32,928 nucleotides of DNA from Bdellovibrionales bacterium (GTDB lineage Bacteria; Bdellovibrionota_C; UBA2361; SZUA-149), in NCBI GenBank assembly GCA_020434415.1, contig JAGRAW010000008.1, positions 1 to 32,928 on the forward strand, in the 5' to 3' direction. Positions 230-22,970 of the stretch are shown here, piece after piece. The position numbers and the translations under genes were made by a program. The notes beneath the pieces are model-generated. The model was not told the origin of the DNA, did not search any database, and was given only the letters and a program-made list of their open reading frames with translations. The stretch's first letter is position 1, and the number at the start of each line of letters is the position of its first letter.

Positions 230-1393
230 TCAGTCGAGGTGTAGTTTCAGGTCGTCCTCAGCGGATTTTTTGGTCTCGCTTGAAGCGTTTGTCTTGGGCG
301 AGAAGGCTGCCGGTTGATCTTCGCCCATGGAGTCTTCGTTCAGCTTGATGCGTAGGCGTAGATTGTTGGCGCTGTCGGCGTTTCGTAGCGCTTCTTCGAG
401 CGTTATCTTGCCTTCGCTGTAGAGTTCGAACAGGTGTTGGTCGAAGGTCTGCATGCCAATCGTGGTGCCCTTCTCCATCGCCTCCTTGATGTCGGCGATT
501 TCTCCCTTGTGAATCAGATCCTTGATCCGGGGGCTTCCGAGCAGCACTTCGACGGCAGCTATTCGATTGCCGTCGACCGATCGGACGAGTCGTTGACTGA
601 TGATCGAGCGTAGATTGAGGCTCAGCTGAAGGTAGATTTGCTTGTGACGTTCCTGGGGAAAGAAGTTCATGATTCGCTCCATCGCCTGGTTGGCGTTGTT
701 TGAATGAAGCGTTGCCAAGCAGAGATGACCTGTCTCGGCGAAGGTAATTGCGGCCTCCATTGTCTCCAAGTCACGTATTTCGCCGATCAGAATGACGTCG
801 GGTGCTTGGCGTAGCGCGTTTTTCAACGCGTAATGGTAATTGTCCGTATCCATGCCGATCTCCCGCTGGGTGATGATGGATTTTTTGTGGACGTGCACGA
901 ACTCGATCGGATCCTCGACCGTAATGATATGGCCGGCTTGATTCGTATTTCGATAATCAATCATCGCAGCGAGAGAGGTCGACTTACCGGAACCTGTCGC
1001 ACCTACAAAGAGAACCAGTCCCCGCTTTGCCATGGCAACTTCTTTGAGCACGGCGGGCAGACTCAGATCGTCGAGAGTGGCGATATCGCTTTTTATCTGC
1101 CGAATTACCATACCGACGCAGCCGCGCTGACGGAACGCATTCACCCGATACCGTCCAAGAGCGGGGTAGTAGAGTGCCAGATTCTGCTCGTTAGACTCTT
1201 CGAATTCGCGTTGTTGCCGCTCGTTCATGATGCTCATCGCGAGCCGCTCGGTATCCTCCGGGTCGAGGCAGCGGTTCCCCGCCGGTCGGACGACGCCATT
1301 GACGCGATAACACGGCGGGCTATCGACCGTGATATACAGGTCCGAAGCATCGTGTTCGTTCATGACTGTCAGTAATTTCTTGATGTCGAGCAT
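230..1393 (-). CDS. pilU: Type IV pilus retraction ATPase PilU
   Basis: A cytoplasmic hexameric secretion-family ATPase, accessory to PilT in pulling pilin subunits back into the inner membrane. The 387-residue product has an N-terminal PAS-like domain (about 1-110), then the RecA-like core. Visible motifs are Walker A GATGSGKSTSLA, the Walker B-type stretch VILIGEIRD and the His-box region GHLCLATLHSNNANQA. The stretches ALKNALRQAPDV, MNFFPQ and GMQTFDQ, and the tail NADSANNLRLRIKL, are typical of PilU rather than PilT, as is the length of about 380 residues. It starts 16 nt after the pilT stop on the same strand, so the pair is probably one operon. The last 35 or so residues are polar and variable. 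PilU identity is well supported; whether it can act without PilT cannot be read from sequence. Confidence 0.93.
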   Translation of the reverse strand: MLDIKKLLTVMNEHDASDLYITVDSPPCYRVNGVVRPAGNRCLDPEDTERLAMSIMNERQQREFEESNEQNLALYYPALGRYRVNAFRQRGCVGMVIRQIKSDIATLDDLSLPAVLKEVAMAKRGLVLFVGATGSGKSTSLAAMIDYRNTNQAGHIITVEDPIEFVHVHKKSIITQREIGMDTDNYHYALKNALRQAPDVILIGEIRDLETMEAAITFAETGHLCLATLHSNNANQAMERIMNFFPQERHKQIYLQLSLNLRSIISQRLVRSVDGNRIAAVEVLLGSPRIKDLIHKGEIADIKEAMEKGTTIGMQTFDQHLFELYSEGKITLEEALRNADSANNLRLRIKLNEDSMGEDQPAAFSPKTNASSETKKSAEDDLKLHLD

Positions 1394-1409: not shown

Positions 1410-2504
1410 CTAGCGTCCGTAGTTGATGGAAGACGGCTTGCCTGCTGCGCCATTCGGTGCGGAGTGGTCGCCAAATAGATTGGGATTGCCGGATTTTTCG
1501 ATGGCGTGCTCATGGGTAATCAAATTCTTGTGCGCCAGCTCGAGAATTGAAGACTCCATAGTGCACATGCCCACAGCCTGGCTGGTCTGGATCACCGAAG
1601 GGAGTTGGTGAATTTTCGCCTCGCGGATCAAGTTGCGCACAGCACTTGTGCCGATCATGATCTCAAGCGCGGCCGCCCGGCCACCCCCGATCTTTTTACA
1701 CAAGGTCTGCGTAATGACAGCCTGAAGGGATTCCGCGAGCATTGCACGCACCTGAGCTTGCTGACTGGGCGGAAAAACGTCGATAATACGGTCGATGGTC
1801 TTGGGCGCGCTCGATGTGTGGAGTGTTCCCATTACCAAGTGGCCGGTCTCAGCCGCAGTGAGTGCAAGCTGGATAGTTTCCAGGTCGCGCATTTCACCGA
1901 CAAGTATGATATCCGGATCCTCGCGCAGTGCCGCCCGAAGGGCATTGGCGAAGCTCTGTGTGTGAGGTCCGACCTCTCGCTGGTTCACGAGGCATTTCTT
2001 GGATTGATGAACGAATTCGACCGGATCCTCGATAGTGAGGATGTGATCTTCGCGCTCTTCGTTGATTAGGTTGATCATCGCCGCGAGAGTGGTTGACTTC
2101 CCTGAACCGGTCGGTCCGGTTACGAGAATCAAGCCTTTTTCCTTTCGCGTAAGCTTTGCCAGAATCGACGGCATGCCCAATTGTTCCAGGGTGAGAATCT
2201 TGGTTGGAATGATACGGAAGACAGCACCCATACCGCGACGTTGACGGAAAATGTTGACGCGAAAGCGGGCGGTGTCGCCCAGCTCGATCGAAAAGTCGAT
2301 GTCGGAGCGCTCTTCGAAGACCTTGCGCTGCTGATCGCCCATGATGTCGTAGAGCATCGATTGGGTTTGTTCCGTGGAGAGCGCAGGTACCTTGACCTTT
2401 CGCATTGAGCCGTCGACGCGAATCATCGGGGGCTCACCTGCACTGATGTGCAGATCGGATCCGCCCTGTTGGAAACAGAAAGTAAGAAGCTGCGTTATAT
2501 CCAT
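1410..2504 (-). CDS. pilT: Type IV pilus twitching motility ATPase PilT
   Basis: The main retraction motor of type IV pili, powering twitching motility and DNA uptake from the cytoplasmic face of the inner membrane. The 364-residue product matches the usual PilT length plus a short extra tail. Motifs in order are an N-terminal SDLHISAGEPPMIRVDG, Walker A GPTGSGKSTTLA, Asp-box region ILTIEDPVEFVH, Walker B region IILVGEMRD and His box GHLVMGTLHT. Near the C-terminus is AVRNLIRE, the PilT retraction signature (AIRNLIRE in other species). The ATG at 2504 gives the standard N-terminus; only a weak GGAAG lies upstream. It is first in an apparent pilT-pilU operon. The structural pilus genes are not in the window. 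Confidence 0.95.
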   Translation of the reverse strand: MDITQLLTFCFQQGGSDLHISAGEPPMIRVDGSMRKVKVPALSTEQTQSMLYDIMGDQQRKVFEERSDIDFSIELGDTARFRVNIFRQRRGMGAVFRIIPTKILTLEQLGMPSILAKLTRKEKGLILVTGPTGSGKSTTLAAMINLINEEREDHILTIEDPVEFVHQSKKCLVNQREVGPHTQSFANALRAALREDPDIILVGEMRDLETIQLALTAAETGHLVMGTLHTSSAPKTIDRIIDVFPPSQQAQVRAMLAESLQAVITQTLCKKIGGGRAAALEIMIGTSAVRNLIREAKIHQLPSVIQTSQAVGMCTMESSILELAHKNLITHEHAIEKSGNPNLFGDHSAPNGAAGKPSSINYGR

Positions 2505-2699
2505 GTGTTGCTTCCGATAAGCAGACGTGCGTAATGCGTTGCTTCACAGACCCCCATAGAGAATGTCGAAGAGAACGGCCGGAAGCTTAAGCTCTCGGTG
2601 AACGCAAAAGCGTGATAGTTTTAAGTCGTTGGATCCGAAGGACTTTTGTCGGCGCTCAGCACTGGCGGGGGCGACTGGAGCGAGGGGCAGCTCTGTTGC

Positions 2700-2954
2700 T
2701 TAGCAGACCGGCCCGTTACAGAACCCTTCTCCGGCATCGGAAAACATCGAGCTGGCCTCTGTCCCGAGAAAGGTGACTCCCGCGATACAGACGACGGCAA
2801 TTACGGCCGCGAGCATCACGTACTCGATCATCGTTGCGCCCTTTTCGGGTTGCTCGCGGGTATCCATCAGGTAGTGTAGTTGGTCAGACAGCCAGGATAA
2901 TTGGTTAGACAGCCGGTGTAATTGATCAGAGTTTTGTTGTTTACGCTTGCCCAC
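2700..2954 (-). CDS. Flp-type pilin precursor with extended heptad-repeat leader
   Basis: A small type IVb (Flp/Tad) pilin. The hallmark EKGATMIEYVMLAAVIAVV is present: a prepilin peptidase site G|A, Glu at position +5 and Tyr at +6 of the mature chain, then a hydrophobic helix. I start it at the GTG at 2954 because GGTGGAGG lies 6-7 nt upstream; this gives 84 residues with a 39-residue leader and a 45-residue mature pilin. The ATG at 2867 would give a conventional short leader (55 residues) but has no ribosome site. The extra leader holds three consecutive heptads (SDQLHRL, SNQLSWL, SDQLHYL). The mature end has two cysteines (FCNGPVC). No tad assembly genes are nearby; the neighbours are pilTU and, divergently, mfd. 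Family assignment is firm, the start less so. Confidence 0.8.
   Translation of the reverse strand: MGKRKQQNSDQLHRLSNQLSWLSDQLHYLMDTREQPEKGATMIEYVMLAAVIAVVCIAGVTFLGTEASSMFSDAGEGFCNGPVC
2868..2930 (-). repeat. Three tandem 21-bp repeats in the Flp pilin leader
   Basis: Units lie at 2868-2888, 2889-2909 and 2910-2930. Read on the minus strand each encodes one heptad of the form S-[DN]-Q-L-[HS]-x-L. Many differences between units leave the S, Q and L positions intact, which argues that the stretch is translated. Confidence 0.85.
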
Positions 2955-3095
2955 GCTACTACCTCCACCACATAAACGACCAACCAGCATGGACTTCGCA
3001 ATCACGAGAAGTGCGTTCTCCAGCCGAGCGCTTCCCATACGGGACGATGCCTTGCTAGTGTCCAGGTCCTACTCGGTCGGTAGGCTAAAAACACA

Positions 3096-3114
3096 TCGCG
3101 GCTGAGTGCCGCGA
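3096..3114 (-). terminator. Intrinsic terminator-like hairpin in the putative flp leader
   Basis: A perfect 7-bp GC-rich stem, TCGCGGC/GCCGCGA, has a 5-nt loop and is followed on the minus strand by TGTGTTTTT (down to 3087). It sits between the candidate flp promoter and the pilin start, where it could attenuate pilin transcription, or simply stop unrelated minus-strand transcripts. Confidence 0.55.
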
Positions 3115-3132
3115 AAGGCATTTACCAATTTG

Positions 3133-3161
3133 ATTATACCCCGACGGAGACTTCCGTTGAA
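3133..3161 (-). promoter_or_regulatory. Candidate sigma-70 promoter for the Flp pilin gene
   Basis: On the minus strand a perfect TATAAT (3138-3133) is preceded at 17 bp by TTCAAC (3161-3156), which matches the -35 consensus at 3 of 6 positions. Transcription would start near 3126, about 170 nt before the GTG start of the pilin. Confidence 0.4.
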
Positions 3162-3237
3162 GCCCCTGATTGCGTGAAATGACTTCAAATATCCCAGTGC
3201 CAGGAAGGAGGAATCGACCGATTCGCACTGAAATCCC

Positions 3238-6200
3238 ATGGTAGCTGCTTCTCCGAACAGACAGACCGAGTCTCTGCAAAGCCTACGCTACCTAGGTCTC
3301 GGGAGCGGTGCGACCGCACTTCAGGTGCTGGACCTGGCATCGACGAGTGGGGGAGGTCCGGTGTTGGTTGTCGTTGAAAACAGCCGGGCCGGCGAGCTTT
3401 TTTTGAGCGATGCACGGTTTCTCGCTCCACCACAGCATCAGGTCATTCCGTTGTTCGGCTGGGAAGTTCTCCCGTTCGACGGTCTTTCGCCGGCGCCGGA
3501 CGTTTCGGCGGCTCGTCTCTACGCTTTATACGAGCTTACGCGGGGCAGTGCTGCGATTGTGGTCGCGAGCGTGGAAGCCATGATGCAGCGCATCGCTCCG
3601 CCGAACTTTCTTCGGCAGTCCGTGCTCGAGCTTGCAGTCGGTGCCGAGCTTGATAGAGAGGAGCTCATCGAGAAGCTCGACGAAGGGGGGTATCGACGAA
3701 GCACGCTGGTCGAGGAGACCGGACAGATGGCGATTCGCGGTGCGGTCGTCGATCTATTTCCGCCGGGAAGCGTCTATCCGGTTCGCGTTGAGCTTTTCGG
3801 TGACGAAGTGCAATCCATTCGGCGGTTCGATTCTTCGACCCAACGCTCGCATGATCAGGTGACGCGTTTCTCCGTGTTGCCGGTTCGCGAATTATTCGTC
3901 TCGTCGGACCGGGATGCGATGCTGAATGCGCTTCGCGATCGGGCATCGGAGCTCTCGCTTCCCCGTGCTGCGAGTAAGACCGTAGAGGATGCTTTGCAAA
4001 CCGGCGTAGCGTGGCCGGGTATCGAGCATCTTCAGCCGCTGCTGCTGGAGCAGTTGGCGACTGTTTGGGACTATCTACCTCCTGGGGCCCCGGTTGTCGT
4101 GATCGATGAGGCAGGGGTGGAACGTTCTGCGGACGAGTTTCAAGCCTTGGTCGAAGAACGCCGGCACCGGGCTCATGAAGAGGGAAGGTTGTTTCCGCCT
4201 GCGGAAGCAGCCTTTGACAGTGCAGACCGCTTCGTCGAATCAGCTCGGTCGCGCATGACGCACGCCTTCAACGCCATGGAATTGCTCAGCAGCGCCGCAA
4301 CCGAGCCGCCTGTAGCTGAGCGCGATGCTTCGCAGGGGAACAAGCGCTTCGCCACGAACGAAACCCTTCGCGGGGCACTTCGTGCTGCTCGTCAAAGCGA
4401 GCGTCCGCTGCAACCGCTGGCTGAAGCCCTGACGCGAAGAATCGCCGACGGCGAAAGTGTCGCCATCAGCGTCAGTCAGGAGCAGCGAGGAGTGCGAGTG
4501 CGGGAGTTACTCGAGCCGTACGAGGTACCAGTCGACACCTTCCATGGCTCCTTCTCCGAATGGCGACAGGCTACCTGTGCGAAGGAGCGATTGCCCGACG
4601 TTGCACTGCTCACGGGCACGATCAGCGAGGGGTTTCGTCTTCCCGAAGAACGCTGGGGCATCATTTCCGAGCGTGAAATTTTTCCTGATCTACCGGTCCG
4701 CCGCGCTGCGCCTGCCGCTCGGAGCGTCCGTCGGTTTCTGAGCTCCGTAGCGCAGCTTGCCGAGGATGACTATGTCGTACATCTCGATTACGGGATCGGG
4801 ATCTACCGCGGACTGAAGCAGCTTCGTGTCGAAGGGAAAATTGGCGACTTCCTCGAGCTCGAGTATGCCGCGGAAGCCAAGCTTTACGTGCCGGTCGAAA
4901 ATATCGGCAAGGTGCAAAAATACAGTGCCGTCGAAGGGAAGCAGCCTGCGCTGACAAAGCTCGGCGGAAAGACTTGGGAGAAGACGAAGAGTAAGGTCCG
5001 CGAGAACGTGGCACATCTCGCCGGTCAGCTCGTGCAGGTGATGGCCGAGCGGGAAATGGCCCCCGGCTTTTCCTTCGGTCCTGTAAACACTTACGACCTG
5101 GATTTCGGTTCTTCGTTTCCCTTCGAGGAGACCCCGGATCAGCTAGCGGCGATTGAAGCAACGCTGGAAGATATGGCTCGTGAACGTCCGATGGATCGGC
5201 TGGTGTGCGGTGATGTCGGCTACGGAAAAACCGAAGTGGCGATGCGTGCGGCATTCAAGGCGGCGACTGCAGGAAAGCAAGCTGCTGTGCTTGTGCCGAC
5301 TACGGTCCTTGCAGATCAGCATTACGCGAGCTTTCGTGAGCGCTTCGAGCACACGGGAGTCGCCATCGGCTGCGTAAGCCGTTTTTTCTCTGCGGCAGAG
5401 AACAAGGCGACCCTCGCGCGACTTGCCGAAGGGAAAATCGACGTCATTATCGGAACGCACCGGCTACTACAGCGGGACGTGCAGTTCAAAGATCTTGGCC
5501 TCTTGATCATTGACGAAGAGCATCGCTTCGGGGTTGCCCACAAGGAGAAATTCAAGCGACTTCGAGCAGATGTTGATGTACTCACACTTACGGCCACGCC
5601 GATTCCCCGTACGCTCCACATGTCGCTTTCCGGCATCCGAGACTTGAGCCTGATCGCGACGGCCCCTGTGAACCGGCAGGTTATTCGAACCTATCTCGCG
5701 CCATACGAAGCGAATATCGTCCGTGAGGCGGTTGTTCGGGAGCTGAGTCGTGGCGGGCAAGTCTTTTACATCTACAATCGGGTCGGTACCATTCAACAGG
5801 TTGCCGACGAGGTGGCCGATCTTGTGCCGGAGGCCCGAGTGCTCGTCGGCCATGGCCAGATGAAGGAGCGCGAGCTTGAATCGGTGATGCACCGCTTTAT
5901 CAAGCATGAGGCGGATGTACTGATCTCTACCACGATCGTCGAGTCCGGACTTGATATTCCGAACGCGAATACGATTATCATCCGCAACGCCGATATGTTC
6001 GGCCTTGCCGAACTGTATCAGCTTCGGGGGCGTGTCGGACGAAGCTCCCGGCGGGCCTACGCATATCTGCTGGTCTCCGATCCTAAGGCCTTGAAAGCCG
6101 AAGCCCGTCAACGTCTAGCTGTGCTCCAATCACTCGACGACCTCGGCGAAGGGTTTCGACTTGCGCTGCAAGACATGGAAATCCGTGGAGCAGGTAATTT

Positions 6201-6783
6201 ACTGGGCAAAGACCAGTCAGGCCATATCAGCCTCGTGGGATACGAGCTTTATTCTCGGATTCTCAAGGAAGCTGTTGCCGAAATCAAAGCCCAACGCGAG
6301 CGAGGAAGCGGGCAAGCGGCCACACGTCCGCGGATCGATCCGGAGCTCCACGTCGGATTCCCGGCGCACATTCCGCCGTTCTACATTCCCGATGTGGCGG
6401 AACGTCTACTGCTCTATCAGCGTCTCATCGAAGTGTCAGGTGAGGTCGAGGGAAACGAGATACTCGCGGAAATCGAAGATCGCTTCGGTAACCCGCCGGA
6501 CGAGGTATATCTGTTGATTGATTTGATGGTGCTTCGGGCATTCGCAAGAGATGCGGGCATCGTCCGTCTTAACTTCCGCGGTGGCCGTCTGAGCTTTTCG
6601 TTTCATCAGGACGTCAAACTGGATGTAGAAGCCCTTAAGGCAGCAGTGAGACGTTCGCACGGCCGTCTGAAGGTGAGTCCTTCCGGCGTCGTCAGTTGGG
6701 AGTTGGACGAGCGGGCGGTGGAGCGCCCCTTGGAGCTTCGTCGGGAGCTGGAGAGACTGCTTGGAGATTTCGGAAGCAGGTAG
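3238..6783 (+). CDS. mfd: Transcription-repair coupling factor Mfd
   Basis: A DNA translocase that removes RNA polymerase stalled at lesions and recruits UvrA. The 1181-residue length is normal. The N-terminal UvrB-like region (about 25-340) contains WEVLPFDGLSPAPDVSAARL. An RNA polymerase-interaction domain begins near 511 with HLDYGIGIYRG. The RecG-like helicase core carries Walker A GDVGYGKT (about 657-664), the DEEH box IIDEEHRFG (about 757), TATPIPRTL and LRGRVGRS. The TRCF C-terminal domain follows. An in-frame TGA at 3229-3231 means the ATG at 3238 is the earliest possible start, yet the only strong Shine-Dalgarno (AAGGAGG, 3205-3211) is 26 nt upstream, too far for normal use. It is divergent from the flp gene. 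Confidence 0.97.
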   Translation: MVAASPNRQTESLQSLRYLGLGSGATALQVLDLASTSGGGPVLVVVENSRAGELFLSDARFLAPPQHQVIPLFGWEVLPFDGLSPAPDVSAARLYALYELTRGSAAIVVASVEAMMQRIAPPNFLRQSVLELAVGAELDREELIEKLDEGGYRRSTLVEETGQMAIRGAVVDLFPPGSVYPVRVELFGDEVQSIRRFDSSTQRSHDQVTRFSVLPVRELFVSSDRDAMLNALRDRASELSLPRAASKTVEDALQTGVAWPGIEHLQPLLLEQLATVWDYLPPGAPVVVIDEAGVERSADEFQALVEERRHRAHEEGRLFPPAEAAFDSADRFVESARSRMTHAFNAMELLSSAATEPPVAERDASQGNKRFATNETLRGALRAARQSERPLQPLAEALTRRIADGESVAISVSQEQRGVRVRELLEPYEVPVDTFHGSFSEWRQATCAKERLPDVALLTGTISEGFRLPEERWGIISEREIFPDLPVRRAAPAARSVRRFLSSVAQLAEDDYVVHLDYGIGIYRGLKQLRVEGKIGDFLELEYAAEAKLYVPVENIGKVQKYSAVEGKQPALTKLGGKTWEKTKSKVRENVAHLAGQLVQVMAEREMAPGFSFGPVNTYDLDFGSSFPFEETPDQLAAIEATLEDMARERPMDRLVCGDVGYGKTEVAMRAAFKAATAGKQAAVLVPTTVLADQHYASFRERFEHTGVAIGCVSRFFSAAENKATLARLAEGKIDVIIGTHRLLQRDVQFKDLGLLIIDEEHRFGVAHKEKFKRLRADVDVLTLTATPIPRTLHMSLSGIRDLSLIATAPVNRQVIRTYLAPYEANIVREAVVRELSRGGQVFYIYNRVGTIQQVADEVADLVPEARVLVGHGQMKERELESVMHRFIKHEADVLISTTIVESGLDIPNANTIIIRNADMFGLAELYQLRGRVGRSSRRAYAYLLVSDPKALKAEARQRLAVLQSLDDLGEGFRLALQDMEIRGAGNLLGKDQSGHISLVGYELYSRILKEAVAEIKAQRERGSGQAATRPRIDPELHVGFPAHIPPFYIPDVAERLLLYQRLIEVSGEVEGNEILAEIEDRFGNPPDEVYLLIDLMVLRAFARDAGIVRLNFRGGRLSFSFHQDVKLDVEALKAAVRRSHGRLKVSPSGVVSWELDERAVERPLELRRELERLLGDFGSR

Positions 6784-22294: not shown

Positions 22295-22774
22295 ATGTCG
22301 GGATTTCGGACTCTGTTGGAAGTGTTGATCAGCGGCACGGTGGATGTAGCCGGCAACGGGGCGGTGCACAGCGGCAAGGGCCTATTGGTAGCCGGCGCGC
22401 GAAAGATTGGCTGGGCCAGTGGCGGTAGTGCCTCACGCCAAGGCAAACGTTTTGCCGGCCACAGTATCGCGAGTCGCTCCCTGGGAAGTGGTTTCGGCGG
22501 TAGCGGTCGCAGCCGTACCGGCGCCTATAATCCGGCGGCTGAATACCAGAGTCGAACACTGAACTCTTACCATCAGGCAATGAAGTGCGGCACCGGCGTG
22601 CAGCAGTTTGCGGCCCCGCAGCGCAACGCACCGTCTCATCTGTTTGGTCGGCCGGGGTTCGAAGCTCCTCAGAGCAAAGTCGGGAGGAACGACGGGAATC
22701 GCTTCTGTCGGCATCAGTCCGATACGCGAGGACAGAGCTGGTCGAAAAATCCCCGGGGCCACATCAAGTTCTAG
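22295..22774 (+). CDS. Doubtful ORF of unknown function
   Basis: A 159-residue frame opening with FRTLLEVLISGTVDVAGNGA and then rich in Gly, Ser and Arg, with a more mixed second half (NPAAEYQSRTLNSYHQAMKC). Codons (GGC, GCC, GGT, CGC) look like those of neighbouring genes, which favours coding. Against it, there are overlapping open frames on the opposite strand, only a run of Gs for a ribosome site, and no recognisable domain. Its TAG stop lies inside the first unit of an 18-bp tandem triplicate. If it is not a gene, 22089-22970 has no visible gene. Confidence 0.35.
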   Translation: MSGFRTLLEVLISGTVDVAGNGAVHSGKGLLVAGARKIGWASGGSASRQGKRFAGHSIASRSLGSGFGGSGRSRTGAYNPAAEYQSRTLNSYHQAMKCGTGVQQFAAPQRNAPSHLFGRPGFEAPQSKVGRNDGNRFCRHQSDTRGQSWSKNPRGHIKF

Positions 22775-22826
22775 CTTGTTTCTGAAGCACAGCTTGTTTC
22801 TGAAGCACAACTTGTTTCTGAAGCAC
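22773..22826. repeat. Three tandem 18-bp repeats
   Basis: The unit AGCTTGTTTCTGAAGCAC occurs at 22773-22790 and 22791-22808, and with one change (AACTTG start) at 22809-22826. The first unit overlaps the stop of the doubtful ORF. Copies are directly adjacent with no spacers, so this is not a CRISPR array. Confidence 0.95.
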
Positions 22827-22970
22827 AACGGGATTGCGGGCGGACTAGCTTTAGCAGATTGCTAAAAGCGTCCTTCTCCATGTCCGAGCGGTTGGGCTCG
22901 GCATCGAAGCTGACCTATGCTCTTAAGGCACATTGCGGCAACATTCGGTCTGCATCACTGGGAATCTGTC

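Follow-up and report, generated by a model that had tools for sequence, protein, structure and literature searches.

An orphan Flp prepilin gene between mfd and pilT-pilU in a Bdellovibrionales genome, with a triplicated 21-bp unit in its predicted leader

The window analysed here is a stretch of 32,928 nucleotides and represents one contig (C666) of a draft Bdellovibrionales genome (4,538,795 bases, 677 contigs, 79.7% complete). Our best reading of the gene at its centre of interest is an ordinary, orphan prepilin gene of the Flp family (Tad-type), located between mfd and pilT-pilU (Table 1). We think it rather probable that this prepilin starts at GTG 2954 and has a disposable leader that was lengthened by local tandem duplication, the added heptads being tolerated. 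The repeat is real and was found in the host genome alone, and nothing shows a special job for it.

Table 1. Positions of flp, its parts and its neighbours in the window.
Feature	Position	Strand	Basis
Second PilT/PilU-family ATPase gene	230..1393	-	TIGR01420, 456.7 bits
pilT-family ATPase gene, same direction as flp and 195 bases downstream	1410..2504	-	TIGR01420, 502.5 bits, cut-off 319.1
flp, Flp/Fap-family prepilin gene	2700..2954	-	PF04964 match and 8u2b/8u1k alignment
Mature pilin, 45 residues, two Cys at C-terminus (CNGPVC)	2703..2837	-	Pfam, motif, solved-chain match
Leader peptide, 39 residues, last residue Gly; predicted to stay in the cytoplasm and to be cut off by prepilin peptidase	2838..2954	-	motif KG/ATMIE; cleavage as expected for the family
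21-bp unit 3, SDQLHYL	2868..2888	-	sequence
21-bp unit 2, SNQLSWL	2889..2909	-	sequence
21-bp unit 1, SDQLHRL	2910..2930	-	sequence
Ribosome-binding site GGAGGT, 6 bases from GTG 2954	2961..2966	-	sequence; duplex -10.7 kcal/mol
mfd (transcription-repair coupling factor), divergent, upstream of flp	3238..6783	+	Pfam TRCF, CarD_TRCF_RID, UvrB_inter, DEAD

The preliminary description had called the product a Flp-type pilin, and this was borne out. The gene runs on the minus strand from GTG 2954 to a stop codon at 2702-2700 and encodes 84 aa, leader then mature part, VGKRKQQNSDQLHRLSNQLSWLSDQLHYLMDTREQPEKG / ATMIEYVMLAAVIAVVCIAGVTFLGTEASSMFSDAGEGFCNGPVC (here and below a slash marks the predicted cut). 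The product scored 38.4 bits against Pfam PF04964 (Flp_Fap; cut-off 32.2) over residues 37-77, and the solved Flp/PilA chains 8u2b and 8u1k matched it at residues 40-77 (E 3e-4), beginning at residue 40, which is the first mature residue. The mature protein is very short, 45 residues, and the matched solved chains have 45 as well. A Gly before the cut and a Glu at +5 make up the usual prepilin cleavage site. The flp product has this G/xxxxE motif as KG/ATMIEY, with Gly preceding the cut, Glu at +5, Tyr at +6 and a hydrophobic stretch next (residues around the predicted cut, KG/ATMIEYVMLAAVIAVVCIAGVTFLG). An NCBIfam profile search assigned the pilin to no family.

flp is not linked to a tad locus, a linkage that is common but not needed for PF04964 membership; its neighbours are mfd and the two pilT-family genes. 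Another contig of the host genome carries a tad-like flp, flanked by a TadZ-like AAA_31 gene on one side and by rcpC on the other; the genome also encodes a prepilin peptidase with an A24 N-terminal domain and a peptidase domain (PF06750, PF01478). Among the 18 pilT loci examined, the window's own included and with two (L063 and L095) that look like one genome, an mfd gene adjacent to pilT was detected in 10. A Flp gene between mfd and pilT was present in two of the 18, the window and genome G012, and no Flp was found in the mfd-pilT interval of G001, a genome of the same family; the presence of Flp at this site is thus patchy. By the PilT neighbour, the closest named genomes were 'Proteobacteria bacterium' H1_MAG_00014 (84%), AM_0729 (74%) and 'Deltaproteobacteria bacterium' UBA2409 (73%). 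Orphan flp genes of another kind of site were seen in G000 and G001 (L196 525-653 and L197 1076-1201), where they lie divergently beside a CHASE2-domain gene, a pilin-sensor neighbourhood common to two genera. In the window, the gap separating mfd from flp contains a terminator-like hairpin (3096-3114, minus strand, that of flp), the number of such sites being that expected by chance.

The reading frame of flp is still open upstream of GTG 2954; the open reading frame was listed from ATG 3038, and the frame is open above that codon too. In-frame starts would give leaders of 67, 56, 51, 39 and 10 residues, with duplex energies of -3.0, -6.4, -2.4, -10.7 and +0.7 kcal/mol, respectively, against what we take to be the 16S tail. 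The hexamer GGAGGT in front of GTG 2954 belongs to GGTGGAGG, given as 2962-2969, and its energy was equalled by just 1.0% of the 2719 start-like triplets in the window. The preliminary description had placed the start at this GTG for its ribosome site, which would give the 39-residue leader, and our values agree with it. Judging from the ribosome site, GTG 2954 is the most likely start of translation. The codon score of the leader in its true frame was -5.3 bits over 29 codons, the best of six frames yet below zero, and its GC content was 46% versus 58% for 2700-2867, a segment that scored +7.7 bits. As coding sequence the leader segment is therefore favoured, not proven.

Two other starts have to be weighed. 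Translation from ATG 2867 would produce a leader of 10 residues and leave the repeats untranslated, perhaps as direct repeats bound by a regulator, 21 bases being two helix turns, or as a neutral array. Leaders of 10-11 residues are normal here, since the last ATG gives a leader of at most 11 in 12 of the 68 other Flps; the repeat segment has a higher AT content than the gene and a negative codon score, and weak ribosome sites are tolerated at real genes in the window, such as the mfd start (+0.3 kcal/mol). However, ATG 2867 has no ribosome site, 95% of the 2719 triplets being as good or better, whereas that of GTG 2954 is in the top 1%, and the frame, which runs open across the three units, scores best among the six. 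At up to 3 mismatches, moreover, the unit occurred nowhere in the genome except at its three leader sites, unlike a shared operator, and the stretch 2400-3400 yielded no sigma-70-like promoter. We regard the start at ATG 2867 as unlikely. A start upstream of 2954, at ATG 3038 or ATG 2990, appears very unlikely. The leader would then have 67 or 51 residues, with GGTGGAGG amounting only to Gly codons. Such a start agrees with the frame being open above ATG 3038 and with the 28 codons of 2955-3038, which scored +2.3 bits in the same frame, the best of six. The ribosome sites of these two ATGs are weak, however, and a leader of 67 exceeds all those in the census described below; one of 51 is surpassed there by a single, doubtful leader. 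Of the 69 other Flp genes, 55 have a start whose site reaches -5 kcal/mol or better, in line with a strong site at GTG 2954. Neither GTG 2954 nor ATG 2867 is conserved among homologues.

The three 21-bp units differ from one another at 5, 5 and 6 of 21 bases, and the array has a TRF score of 74, a value that none of 60 dinucleotide-shuffled versions of the window reached (best 62). The triplicated unit encoding three heptads, as first described, was therefore confirmed. Arrays scoring at least 74 numbered 17 in 425,157 bases of the host genome (the window, 40 sampled contigs and three contigs with other Flp genes), about 1 per 25 kb, indicating that the leader array is ordinary for this genome. 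A dispersed operator or mobile repeat was ruled out by the restriction of the unit to the leader, and a promoter and terminator scan around flp gave nothing above chance. A stronger array was observed elsewhere in the window (22775-22829; 18-bp unit CTTGTTTCTGAAGCACAA, 3.1 copies, 97% matches). It begins directly 3' of the stop of the open reading frame 22295-22774, and 18-bp arrays are also present in other contigs of the host genome.

We compared the leader with those of 45 genomes of the phylum, which belong to one class only and include none of the window's genus. A motif search over fetched loci, leaving out 80 PilT loci, yielded 70 distinct Flp genes, the window's included. In this non-random census (the better matches to the window protein plus a selection of others), in which the start was the one with the best ribosome site so that long leaders rest on predicted sites, the median leader was 18 residues, with at least 26 in 10, at least 30 in eight and at least 38 in three, the window's gene being counted each time. 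The 64 residues of the longest leader probably reflect a wrongly assigned start, as the same gene has an ATG at 18, though with a weaker site. Leader lengths in this phylum thus probably reach well past 26. The premise that Flp leaders normally have roughly 20 residues or less was too tight, in view of these 10 of 70, a leader of 38 in the same family of bacteria and the 26 of Flp1, and the view that this leader is exceptional in kind for its length found no support. In a separate observation, the mature Flp ends in CNGPVC (2703-2720), and a tail with two cysteines occurs in four of the 70 Flps (the window's, L046, L086 and L208); the tail of L046 is CGMPGC, and a small disulfide loop is possible in such tails.

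The comparison of homologues proposed earlier bore fruit for leader length, which varies widely (median 18, up to 38 and more); for repeat number, the 45 genomes offered no counterpart to count. All alignments of Flp homologues at E <= 1e-7 begin at flp residues 25-35, which leaves the heptads without a counterpart. Queries made of the leader and the start of the mature part found with confidence only the window itself in the 45 genomes. The next-best match (E 0.024, query residues 11-42, 31% identity) was taken as chance, and one leader-query search did recover Flps, via the mature part. A whole-protein search of genome contigs gave 57 pattern matches and no relative; viral contigs gave 21 matches and no relative, and plasmids no match. 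A triple repeat comparable to that of the window was absent from the other census leaders; the leader at L206 ties at 4/7 self-matches at distance 7, apparently by chance.

What remains to be weighed is whether the heptads do something. Their regular leucine spacing was as reported, 3-4 in all three units: Leu occupies all a and d positions of the three heptads, g is always Q and e always S. AlphaFold2 (single sequence, monomer) predicted helices at residues 3-34 and 42-68 (mean pLDDT 69.7; 94 for residues 11-20), a model that supports a leader helix and is silent on pairing. These features would suit a helix that self-associates as a coiled coil or lies on the membrane surface and, until cleavage, holds the prepilin, targets it or makes it cluster, with an effect tuned by copy number. 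In addition, the hydrophobic moment of the heptads (0.391 at 100 degrees) was attained by just 409 of 20000 residue shuffles (2%), and the diverged units retain all four pattern residues. However, with the columns of the heptad permuted and the repetition retained, the same moment was attained in 4342 of 20000 cases (22%), and simple counting gives 3-4 spacing for one third of the ways to place two Leu in a 7-residue repeat. The three units agree in four residue columns (S, Q, L, L); when we simulated from a consensus unit with equal substitution numbers, at least four columns stayed unchanged in 9% of trials, and in 17% of those that were stop-free. The conservation of the pattern between units is therefore not significant (P = 0.09; 0.17 given no stop), and at these values the keeping of all four columns would fit selection too.

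The comparison of synonymous and non-synonymous change between units, which had been suggested as a check, could be carried out as a count by codon position (8, 4 and 4): it gave no third-position excess, and the differences are too few to decide. No homologous leader, and hence no coiled-coil pattern among homologues, was found in the 45 phylum genomes, and a same-family Flp with a leader of 38 residues lacks such a pattern. For the targeting or holding module proposed in the preliminary description we thus obtained nothing positive, and a functional heptad helix in the leader seems quite unlikely to us. Its stronger form, a variable-number coiled-coil module in which in-frame slippage by 21 bp alters prepilin clustering before cleavage and so tunes pilus output between strains, we hold to be highly improbable.

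We therefore return to the tolerated, duplicated leader. The array suggests that the three in-frame copies arose through local tandem duplication. The leader would remain cytoplasmic while the hydrophobic segment inserts in the membrane, and the family motif predicts that the prepilin peptidase cuts after Gly39. Until then, the extra heptads, a predicted amphipathic helix, may rest against the membrane or associate weakly with one another. Once cleaved, the mature protein of 45 residues would serve in a Tad-type pilus, as either a major or a minor subunit. We consider it most likely that the extra heptads are tolerated and not selected, because the leader is thrown away after the cut and because both its length and its sequence drift freely from relative to relative. 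The main lesson of the case at present is that large changes in leader length are tolerated in Flps. We know of no earlier sign of a role of a prepilin leader beyond setting topology and cut, and a functional leader module, if true, would be the first. In the titles and abstracts of the literature surveyed, no coiled-coil prepilin leader was described; no paper combining a prepilin or pilin leader with coiled-coil heptads was found, and none on in-frame 21-bp heptad repeats concerned pilins, judged by title.

Published leaders give a scale for this one. Prepilin leaders of 6 to 26 residues have been listed, 26 being that of Flp1 itself, and type IVb leaders were put at about 15-30 residues (PMC4471445). 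A later review states that leader length can be variable (PMC10191384), and in Streptococcus sanguinis, PilE1 and PilE2 have 18-residue leaders that were termed much longer than those of canonical type IVa pilins (2015; PMC4832360). Flp1 of Aggregatibacter actinomycetemcomitans is, like the product described here, a Flp pilin with a long leader; however, its leader is 13 residues shorter, and the part of that paper drawn on here mentions no repeats for Flp1 (PMC4471445). Closer to the host, the second Flp of contig C78 in G002 (locus L017), from the same family of bacteria, has a 38-residue leader from an ATG with a strong ribosome site. It differs in having no repeats, no common leader sequence and a different genomic site. 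In G012 (C51, locus L199, 3500-3950), from the same taxonomic order, two Flp genes lie between mfd and pilT, the site that the single flp occupies in the window, the first with a best-site leader of 30; both are without repeats, and their mature parts look no more than weakly alike by eye. With Flp/Fap pilins in general (PF04964), the window's Flp shares the short mature helix, the G/xxxxE motif, the E-Y pair and an above-cut-off score, and it departs from the usual members in its 39-residue leader with triplicated heptads and in its orphan site between mfd and pilT-pilU.
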